Notes under the pieces: model-generated
Seen by the model: the letters and a program-made list of their open reading frames with translations, nothing else
Told to the model about the DNA's origin: nothing
Databases searched by the model: none
Part shown: positions 38,464-41,876 of the stretch, in pieces
Numbering within the stretch: position 1 is the stretch's first letter
Layout: each line of letters opens with the position of its first letter
Origin: an uncultured bacterium
GTDB lineage: Bacteria > Bacillota_I > Bacilli_A > RFN20 > CAG-826
Direction of reading: 5' to 3'
Length of the DNA stretch: 64,000 bases
Assembly: GCA_949290395.1 (NCBI GenBank)
Contig: CASERQ010000001.1
Location: 1 to 64,000, forward strand
Made by a program: the position numbers and the translations under genes

Positions 38464-39834
38464 CTAAAAAATACCTAGGAAAATTTCAGTTATAAATCTT
38501 TTAAACGAACTGTAAGGTGGATATTTTACTTTTAATTCTCTTTTAGATTGAACCAAAATACTTTTTTGATGAGTAAAAGTTTCTATTCCAAATTTACCAT
38601 GATAGTGTCCAGTTCCACTAGCACCTACTCCACCAAAAGGAAAACCATCGATGGTAAAATGCATAATCGTATTATTGACACATCCGCCACCAAAACTTAA
38701 ACTTGTCATCACTCTATCTGCTTTTTTCTTATCTTTACCAAAATAATAAAGAGCAAGAGATTTATCTTTTGTTTTTAAGAGTTTTATAACGTCATTTAAA
38801 TTGTCAAATTCCACAATAGGAAGTACTGGTCCAAAGATTTCTTCTTGCATTACTTTTTCATCAAAAGTACTTTCTAGAAGTATAGGACTAATTAGTTTTC
38901 CAAACTTAAAATATTTGTTTAACACCTTATCTACGTTTATATAAGAAGAGATTCTTTCCGCTTGTTTTTCGTTAATTAAAAAAGGAAATTTATCAGAAAT
39001 TTGACCTTTTTTAATATAAAATTTTTCAATCCGTTTTATACACTCTTTAACAAATTTTTCTTTTATTTTTTTGTTAACTAAAACGTAGTCTGGGGCGATA
39101 CAAGTTTGCCCGGCATTGAGAAATTTTCCCCAAACAATTCTTTTGGCAGCCAATTTAATGTTTGCGTCTTCCTCTACTATAGCAGGAGATTTTCCACCAA
39201 GTTCAAGAGTAACAGGAGTTAGAAATTTGCTGGCTTTTTCCATTACTAATTTTCCTACATTCTTTGATCCAGTGAAAAATATGTGATCGTATTGAACATC
39301 AAACAAAGAATCAGTTTCATTTCGATCTTGATAAACTGTACTAAGAACTTCTTTAGGAACAACCTCGATAATTTTCTCAATAACTTTATTAACGTTAGGA
39401 GTATTGTTTGATAATTTTAACAGTACACAATTTCCAGAAAATAAAGCGGAAATTGCCGGGATTAATGATAAATTTAAGGGGTAATTCCAAGGAGAAACAA
39501 CTAAAACGACACCATATGGTTCTTTAAGTATGTAGCCTCTTGATCCGTAATTTATAAATCCTGTCTTTACTTTCTTTGGAGCGAGATAATACCATCCCTT
39601 TTTAATTAAAAAATTGCATTCATTAATTACTTGACCAAGTTCTGTAGAAGCGACCTCATAAGCTGATTTATTAAAATCAGCCTTAAAGGCATTATAAAAA
39701 TCTCTTTTGTAGGCAATTAAATTTCTTTTAATCGCTTTTACCCATTTTAGTCTTTCTTCAAAGTTTTTTGTCTTCCCAGACAAAAAATAATTTCTTTTAG
39801 CTGCGACTATTTTATTAATTAAAGATATTTCCAT
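38464..39834 (-). CDS. Aldehyde dehydrogenase (class 3 type)
   Basis: A 456-residue NAD(P)-linked aldehyde dehydrogenase. The catalytic Glu211 lies in ELGGKSP and Cys245 in NAGQTCIAPD. The end (GGVGASGTGHYHGKFGIETFTHQKS and a hydrophobic tail) is typical of class 3, fatty-aldehyde type enzymes, and the last helix may touch the membrane. Its ATG overlaps the metG stop by one base, so it is co-translated with metG. Confidence 0.93.
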   Translation of the reverse strand: MEISLINKIVAAKRNYFLSGKTKNFEERLKWVKAIKRNLIAYKRDFYNAFKADFNKSAYEVASTELGQVINECNFLIKKGWYYLAPKKVKTGFINYGSRGYILKEPYGVVLVVSPWNYPLNLSLIPAISALFSGNCVLLKLSNNTPNVNKVIEKIIEVVPKEVLSTVYQDRNETDSLFDVQYDHIFFTGSKNVGKLVMEKASKFLTPVTLELGGKSPAIVEEDANIKLAAKRIVWGKFLNAGQTCIAPDYVLVNKKIKEKFVKECIKRIEKFYIKKGQISDKFPFLINEKQAERISSYINVDKVLNKYFKFGKLISPILLESTFDEKVMQEEIFGPVLPIVEFDNLNDVIKLLKTKDKSLALYYFGKDKKKADRVMTSLSFGGGCVNNTIMHFTIDGFPFGGVGASGTGHYHGKFGIETFTHQKSILVQSKRELKVKYPPYSSFKRFITEIFLGIF

Positions 39835-41426
39835 TATTTATTATTGCCCATTAATCCTTTAACGTATTCAACTTCTTTTGCAACATCTAATCTTGGGAAT
39901 AATATTTCTGTTTTATTCACTTTATGATTATTCAGAACATTGAAATTTTTAAGATTGTCGTAATCATATTCTTCTTTTGTCAAACCTAATGCATTAAAAA
40001 TAATTGGTGATTTTTCTACTAAAACTGGTTCTAACAATTTGGTGCCTACAAAAATGACATAAGCAAGATGACTCATGACACTTTCTAAATTCTTTTTCTT
40101 AGTTTCATCTTTAGCTAATGTCCAAGGTGCAGTTTCCTCAATATATTTATTAGCTCTTCCAAGAAGGTTCATTACATCAATGAAAGCTTCTGTAATGTGT
40201 AAGTCATCAAGTTTATTTTCGTATTGAAAAATCGTTTCTAAAACCATATCTTCAATTTCTTTATCTTGTGGATTAACTCCTTTTTCAAAATTAGGAACAA
40301 CTCCATCAAAATATTTTTGAATCATCGAAATGGTTCTGCTAACTAAATTACCAATATTATTAGCTAAATCAACATTTACTCTATCTACAAATTGTTCAGG
40401 GGTGAATTGTCCGTCTTGTCCAAAAACAACTTCTCTTACAAGGTAATATCTAATTGCATCAACACCATATCTTTCAATAAGTGGGTATGGTGAAACAACG
40501 TTCCCTTTTGACTTAGACATTTTGCCATCTTTCATCATTAAAAGTCCGTGGACAAAGACTCTATCTGGTAATCTAAGGCCTAAAGCTTTTAAAAATTCAG
40601 GCCAATAAATTGTGTGAAAACGAGTAATATCTGCGCCAATCACGTGTATAATTTCACTTTCTTCACTCTTCCAGAATTTTTGATAGAGTTCGTCGTGATC
40701 TGCTCCGTATCCTAATGCGCTTAAATAGTTGCATAAGGCGTCAAGCCAAACATATGCTACGTGTTTATTGTTTTCTCTAATTTGGACACCCCATGAAAAA
40801 GATGTTCTACTTACACACAAATCATCTAAACCAGGTTTGATAAAAGTATTAAGCATTTCATTTTTTCTGTTAATAGGAGTAATAACTTTATCATTATCGT
40901 ACCACTTTAAAAGTTCAGGAAGATACTTTTGAGTTTTAAAGAAATAACTTTCTTCAGTGGCTTTCTCTACTGGTCTTCCACAATCAGGACATAAATGATT
41001 TTCACCAACTTGAGTTTCGGTCCAGAAAGATTCACAAGGTGTGCAGTACCAGCCTTCATATTTTCCAAGATATATATCATCATTTTCTAACATCTTAGAA
41101 AAAATATTTTGAACTGTTGTTATATGTCTTTCTTGAGTTGTACGAATAAAATCATCATTGGAAATTTTCATTGCACTCCAAAGTTTAGTAAAAACATTTG
41201 TAATGTTATCAACATATTCTTGTGGGGTAAGTCCTGCTTTTTCAGCATTTTTTTCAATTTTTAATCCGTGTTCATCGGTACCAGTTAAAAAATAACACTC
41301 AAAGTGTCTCATTCTTTTATATCTAGCAAATACATCGCATAATGTTGTGCAATAAGCGTGTCCGATATGAGGGTTCCCGCTTGGATAATAAATTGGAGTT
41401 GTAATGTAAAATCTCTTTTTAAGCAT
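39834..41426 (-). CDS. metG: Methionyl-tRNA synthetase
   Basis: A 530-residue class I synthetase. It has the HIGH motif (NPHIGHAY, ~18-25), a zinc finger with Cys pairs CTPC and CPDC (~127-145) and KMSKSKGN (~300). It lacks the C-terminal tRNA-binding (EMAP-like) domain of the longer forms, which is normal for many small-genome Firmicutes. AAGGAG precedes the ATG but lies within a folded leader (41431-41509). No T-box is present. Confidence 0.97.
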   Translation of the reverse strand: MLKKRFYITTPIYYPSGNPHIGHAYCTTLCDVFARYKRMRHFECYFLTGTDEHGLKIEKNAEKAGLTPQEYVDNITNVFTKLWSAMKISNDDFIRTTQERHITTVQNIFSKMLENDDIYLGKYEGWYCTPCESFWTETQVGENHLCPDCGRPVEKATEESYFFKTQKYLPELLKWYDNDKVITPINRKNEMLNTFIKPGLDDLCVSRTSFSWGVQIRENNKHVAYVWLDALCNYLSALGYGADHDELYQKFWKSEESEIIHVIGADITRFHTIYWPEFLKALGLRLPDRVFVHGLLMMKDGKMSKSKGNVVSPYPLIERYGVDAIRYYLVREVVFGQDGQFTPEQFVDRVNVDLANNIGNLVSRTISMIQKYFDGVVPNFEKGVNPQDKEIEDMVLETIFQYENKLDDLHITEAFIDVMNLLGRANKYIEETAPWTLAKDETKKKNLESVMSHLAYVIFVGTKLLEPVLVEKSPIIFNALGLTKEEYDYDNLKNFNVLNNHKVNKTEILFPRLDVAKEVEYVKGLMGNNK

Positions 41427-41430
41427 AAAA

Positions 41431-41509
41431 AATCTCCTTAGCCATAATATTTTAAACTAATATTATTTTTTTATCATCTATTCTAAATGATAAAAAAGCC
41501 AAGGAGATT
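41431..41509 (-). promoter_or_regulatory. metG leader: three-way junction RNA that buries the ribosome site
   Basis: On the minus strand, P1 pairs AATCTCCTTGGC (41509-41498) with GCTAAGGAGATT (41442-41431), 12 bp with one G-U, and contains the AAGGAG of metG. Inside lie P2, an 11-bp stem (41497-41487 with 41477-41467), and P3, a 7-bp stem (41465-41459 with 41451-41445). Only three bases are left unpaired at the junction. This is a riboswitch-like layout. A possible extended -10 (TGCTATTAA, ~41508-41515) would start a transcript lacking part of the 5' arm of P1. Confidence 0.55.
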
Positions 41510-41521
41510 AATAGCAAACAA

Positions 41522-41546
41522 AAAGAAAACCTTGCAATCGCAAGGC
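41522..41546 (-). terminator. Terminator of rpmE
   Basis: CCTTGC and GCAAGG form a stem with a four-base loop, followed on the minus strand by TTTTCTTTTT. Confidence 0.8.
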
Positions 41547-41554
41547 TCTTTAAC

Positions 41555-41761: not shown

Positions 41762-41778
41762 AAATATACTCCTTCCGC

Positions 41779-41800
41779 CTTAAGATTCGTGCGATCTTAA
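41779..41800 (-). promoter_or_regulatory. Hairpin in the rpmE leader, possible ribosomal protein leader
   Basis: TTAAGAT and ATCTTAA form a 7-bp stem with the loop cgcacga (minus strand), ending about 13 bases before the ribosome site. L31 leaders are known in several phyla; membership in that class here is inference. Confidence 0.35.
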
Positions 41801-41876
41801 AGAAAGCTTCTTGATTAATTTCAAGCAAGTTATTCTACCAATTTAAATCTTGTAAAGTAAAGGATTTTTTGTTTGC

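Follow-up and report, generated by a model that had tools for sequence, protein, structure and literature searches.

In bacteriophage T4, the longer early transcripts of genes e, soc, 49 and I-TevI hide the Shine-Dalgarno sequence (SD), and transcripts from a promoter located in the 5' strand leave it unhidden (PMC3014915; PMC2988022). In the case of gene e, the tested repression is about 100-fold (PMC3014915; PMC2988022). We describe a leader with a similar layout before metG, the methionyl-tRNA synthetase (MetRS) gene of an uncultured bacterium of the CAG-826 lineage. As in T4, the SD lies in a helix (at metG, a predicted one) that would form only on longer transcripts from upstream, and a promoter inside the region coding for the 5' strand (at metG, a putative one) would give transcripts unable to form it. 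The T4 leaders serve late phage genes and their repression was tested, whereas metG is a bacterial housekeeping gene considered here from its sequence only, with a sigma-70-like promoter, a three-way junction and a single species to its record. Furthermore, structures of the T4 type are predicted in related phages too (PMC3014915), a trait that does not strictly define the type, whereas the metG fold was absent from all relatives searched. The metG leader also resembles T-box leaders (RF00230) in its place ahead of an aminoacyl-tRNA synthetase gene of a low-GC Firmicute but, unlike them, has no T-box match.

A predicted three-way junction covers the metG SD

The window analysed is a stretch of 64,000 nucleotides from an assembly of 1.37 Mb in 21 contigs. 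On its minus strand, rpmE is followed by an intrinsic terminator, the SD-hiding element and metG, in that order (Table 1). The metG-strand RNA of positions 41509-41431 is predicted to fold into a three-way junction of -28.9 kcal/mol (ViennaRNA minimum free energy, MFE); shuffled sequences averaged -10.3 kcal/mol (z -6.56), and none of the 200 folded as stably. When a 181-nt stretch was folded, the junction was kept in the MFE structure and in the centroid, and the predicted pairing probability of the SD was 1.00 in a 115-nt context. The fold reported in the earlier note is thus present and statistically unusual, and the ribosome site does lie inside P1; the stems, described there as 12, 11 and 7 bp with three unpaired junction bases, measure instead 13, 13 and 8 bp with one.

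Table 1. Features of the rpmE-metG region, in window coordinates.
Feature	Position	Strand	Description and basis
metG, methionyl-tRNA synthetase	39834..41426	-	530 aa, ATG start; NCBIfam NF008900 E 1.4e-223, TIGR00398 E 4e-162
P1 3' arm	41431..41443	-	Pairs with P1 5' arm (13 bp, 41509-41497 with 41443-41431); includes SD AAGGAG (41439-41434); probable transcription start near 41442, from the -10 spacing; MFE
P3 hairpin	41444..41466	-	8 bp (41466-41459 with 41451-41444), 7-nt loop; holds -10 element; MFE fold prediction and alignment
Putative metG -10, TAAAAT	41449..41454	-	Inside P3; pattern scan, near-relative alignment, TAWAWT enrichment
Single unpaired junction base	41467		MFE
P2 hairpin	41468..41496	-	13 bp (41496-41484 with 41480-41468), 3-nt loop GAA; MFE fold prediction; unconserved among relatives
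Weak -35 of putative metG promoter, ATGATA	41477-41472	-	17-bp spacer to TAAAAT; pattern scan
P1 5' arm, anti-SD, AATCTCCTTGGCT	41497..41509	-	MFE and centroid structure
rpmE intrinsic terminator	41526..41549	-	10 pairs, 4 GC, T-rich tail
rpmE, ribosomal protein L31	41555..41761	-	NCBIfam NF000612 E 2.7e-31; upstream of metG, co-directional

Searches against Rfam 15 matched only tRNA and SRP RNA above the gathering score in the window. A permissive search over the metG leader returned matches far below gathering, none of them to a T-box or riboswitch. T-box and SAM-type riboswitches were rejected on these grounds, in agreement with the earlier view that the leader is not a T-box; elsewhere in this genome RF00230 matched five times, twice above the gathering score. 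We also rejected tRNA mimicry, as no hairpin loop carries CAU (by eye). No paper on a metG/rpmE leader was among the literature searched.

The 3' arm of P1 ends in GGAGATT and is followed by TTTT, so that polymerase reading through from rpmE might stop at the U-run before the AUG, the element acting as a back-up terminator. The folding energy and the frequent occurrence of terminator-like hairpins adjoining the metG start in relatives are consistent with such a role. Intrinsic terminators, however, have a tight loop rather than a branched 53-nt interior, and the terminator scan did not call the element. We therefore consider a termination function very unlikely.

A probable metG promoter lies within the element

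We aligned the last 67 nt before metG from the genome under study and eight near relatives. The sole invariant upstream block was TAAANTAT, 20-26 nt before the ATG; P2 and the 5' arm of P1, unlike this block, were unconserved. In the window the block reads TAAAATAT (41454-41447) and falls within P3, in its loop and 3' arm. Sequences matching TAWAWT and ending 20-29 nt before start codons numbered 60 in 383 genes, versus approximately 30 per 10 nt further upstream. Expectation maximization of a bipartite promoter over 176 upstream regions gave an AT-rich, weakly discriminating model, and for this reason we relied on the near-relative alignment. Judging from the spacing to the -10, the main metG transcript should start near 41442, about 7 nt past it. 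A conserved -10 in P3 implies that this transcript would lack the 5' arm of P1, P2 and P3, leaving the SD free of the junction.

An alternative promoter in P2 (TTTTTA-17-TGATAAAAA) scored better and would start transcription about 20 nt earlier, still downstream of the 5' arm of P1. In RNA folded from 41461, a weak alternative structure takes up the SD in part (pairing 0.88). The TAAANTAT block is missing from certain relatives: among the more distant ones, some have other -10-like sequences in its place, and some leave no room for a promoter between the rpmE terminator and metG. A promoter had been proposed inside the 5' arm of P1, where it would shorten the transcript and weaken the hiding of the SD. 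The candidates fall in P2 and P3 instead, and from there the hiding would be lost altogether. The associated proposal, that read-through and local transcripts are translated differently, nonetheless stands as the best-supported functional reading, and the embedded promoter is the most useful point of that observation.

The stretch is best explained as an imperfect palindrome, peculiar to this species, that spans metG's own promoter. We assign a probability of roughly 0.5 to the reading that it may serve as a passive, species-specific insulator around that promoter. RNA polymerase would start metG near 41442. The resulting leader, GCUAAGGAGAUUUUUU-AUG, would be about 16 nt long; lacking the 5' arm of P1, it could not form the junction, and its SD would be free of that structure. 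The complete 79-nt element would be present only in RNA reading through the rpmE terminator; there it would fold and mask the SD, and such RNA would yield little MetRS. The element would then be no sensor, simply a barrier between the transcription of rpmE and that of metG. In line with this model, the predicted read-through RNA (146 nt) folded at -32.5 kcal/mol with an SD pairing of 1.00, and the 73-nt RNA beginning at the presumed start reached only -5.5 kcal/mol, with weak contacts of the SD to the coding region (0.62). Within this reading, the promoter is on firmer ground than the insulation.

A bolder version holds that metG output is set by the choice of transcript: read-through RNA from rpmE would be made but silenced by the junction, and MetRS would come only from local transcription. 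We regard this version as unlikely; if true, it would place a device like that of the T4 late genes in a bacterial housekeeping operon. If the insulator reading is true, a gene can be uncoupled from its neighbor's read-through by simple means known from T4, here on a chromosome. If false, the locus warns against taking striking folds from single genomes for riboswitches. What looks like a regulatory leader can turn out to surround a promoter, and an SD-hiding fold counts only when both of its arms are transcribed.

The fold is confined to one genome among those searched

The genome under study contains a single copy of the 86-base element. No full-length DNA match was found in 25 other genomes of the genus, only partial matches of 20-55 bases that were mostly AT-rich. 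This distribution led us to reject a mobile repeat. A covariance model likewise found no match across the order (146 other genomes), although its reach is limited: having been built from the window sequence, it effectively represents one sequence. When the 85 nt before metG were folded in the nearest relatives (86-83% MetG identity), none had an SD-hiding junction (z +0.8 to -1.2; SD pairing 0.11-0.43). In relatives with low z values, the fold was mostly the rpmE terminator, as judged by reading the sequences. As no relative searched has the structure, there is no basis for demonstrating selection on it. A search for metG in viral contigs gave no match. A 16-base match to the metG leader in genome G024 (locus L118, about 1500-1640) is probably due to chance. 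On the opposite strand there, a short ORF of hydrophobic character, with a strong hairpin after it (by eye), resembles the toxin gene of a type I toxin-antitoxin system.

These results bear on the suggestion that the leader is a riboswitch or thermosensor. As a cis-regulatory sensor of this kind, or one bound by a protein, it would control metG translation on the main transcript, and the predicted full pairing of the SD in long RNA, together with AU-rich P2 and P3 helices that could melt, would suit that role. The promoter evidence, however, places the transcription start inside the element, and the Rfam searches, even the permissive one, brought no match near the gathering score. Loops and junction also lack conserved sequence. 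Moreover, the covariation called for in support had nothing to act on, since the structure was in no relative searched; the outcome (no compensatory changes) speaks against a riboswitch or thermosensor, which is unlikely. For a sensor in general, we judge the prospect remote.

The restriction to one genome also suits a palindrome without RNA function. Chance, or mutational processes generating inverted repeats in AT-rich intergenic DNA, would have produced it, and initiation of metG transcription within it would explain why it is tolerated. Several genome-wide comparisons point the same way. Among 176 genes with an SD (a sample that includes the window), complementarity between SD and upstream DNA was not in excess over swapped controls; thus, insulation is not a general habit in this genome, and we rejected a class of SD/anti-SD leaders. 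The pattern CTCCTT-N40-70-AAGGAG occurs in 3 places in the genome versus 2 for the reversed control, and strong inverted repeats are also present in the leaders of other genes. Against a functionless palindrome stands the strength of the fold (z -6.6 to -8.2). The 82-nt metG leader has a z of -8.2; in a sample of 333 other leaders, drawn from 400 kb of this genome with the window itself excluded, the lowest z was -7.0. Pairing of the metG SD with its own upstream DNA (-19.7 kcal/mol) was the best among the 176 genes and was equalled by only 2 of 15660 swapped pairs. These statistics cover about a third of the genome. Three helices around one spare junction base likewise exceed a single chance repeat. 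We hold a functionless palindrome to be a serious possibility, if short of an even one. The finding is modest and species-specific.

Other leaders in the genome and its relatives

In the leader of a lipoprotein gene (G000:C2:70193-70263, L114) the SD can pair with an upstream CTCCTTA, and a promoter-like pair (TTGACA-18-TAAAAT) sits between the arms (leader at C2:70263), a layout as at metG. The ppdK leader (ending at G000:C1:77328) also hides the SD and has a promoter-like sequence between its arms. Its near relatives (L151-L155) keep the -10, as TGATATAAT in three of the five, and have a small hairpin of the AACAACTGCC type right after it. They retain this promoter and part of the small hairpin, not the long P1; in the genome under study the hairpin is lengthened by a long helix that covers the SD.

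The gene order rpmE-metG is kept in most relatives and a terminator-like hairpin recurs in the gap in many. Many order-level relatives have a gap of no more than about 35-45 nt, occupied by such a hairpin and its U-run. The short-gap loci (L054, L057-L060, L063, L064, L067-L071 and L088) lack a clear SD before metG, which may depend there on read-through, on a promoter inside rpmE or on SD-less starts. Just before rpmE in the window (41769-41802, minus strand), the L31-Firmicutes ribosomal protein leader model RF03156 matched below threshold (25.2 bits, gathering score 33.3; E 0.004 over 521 bases). This stretch is probably a divergent L31 autoregulatory leader.
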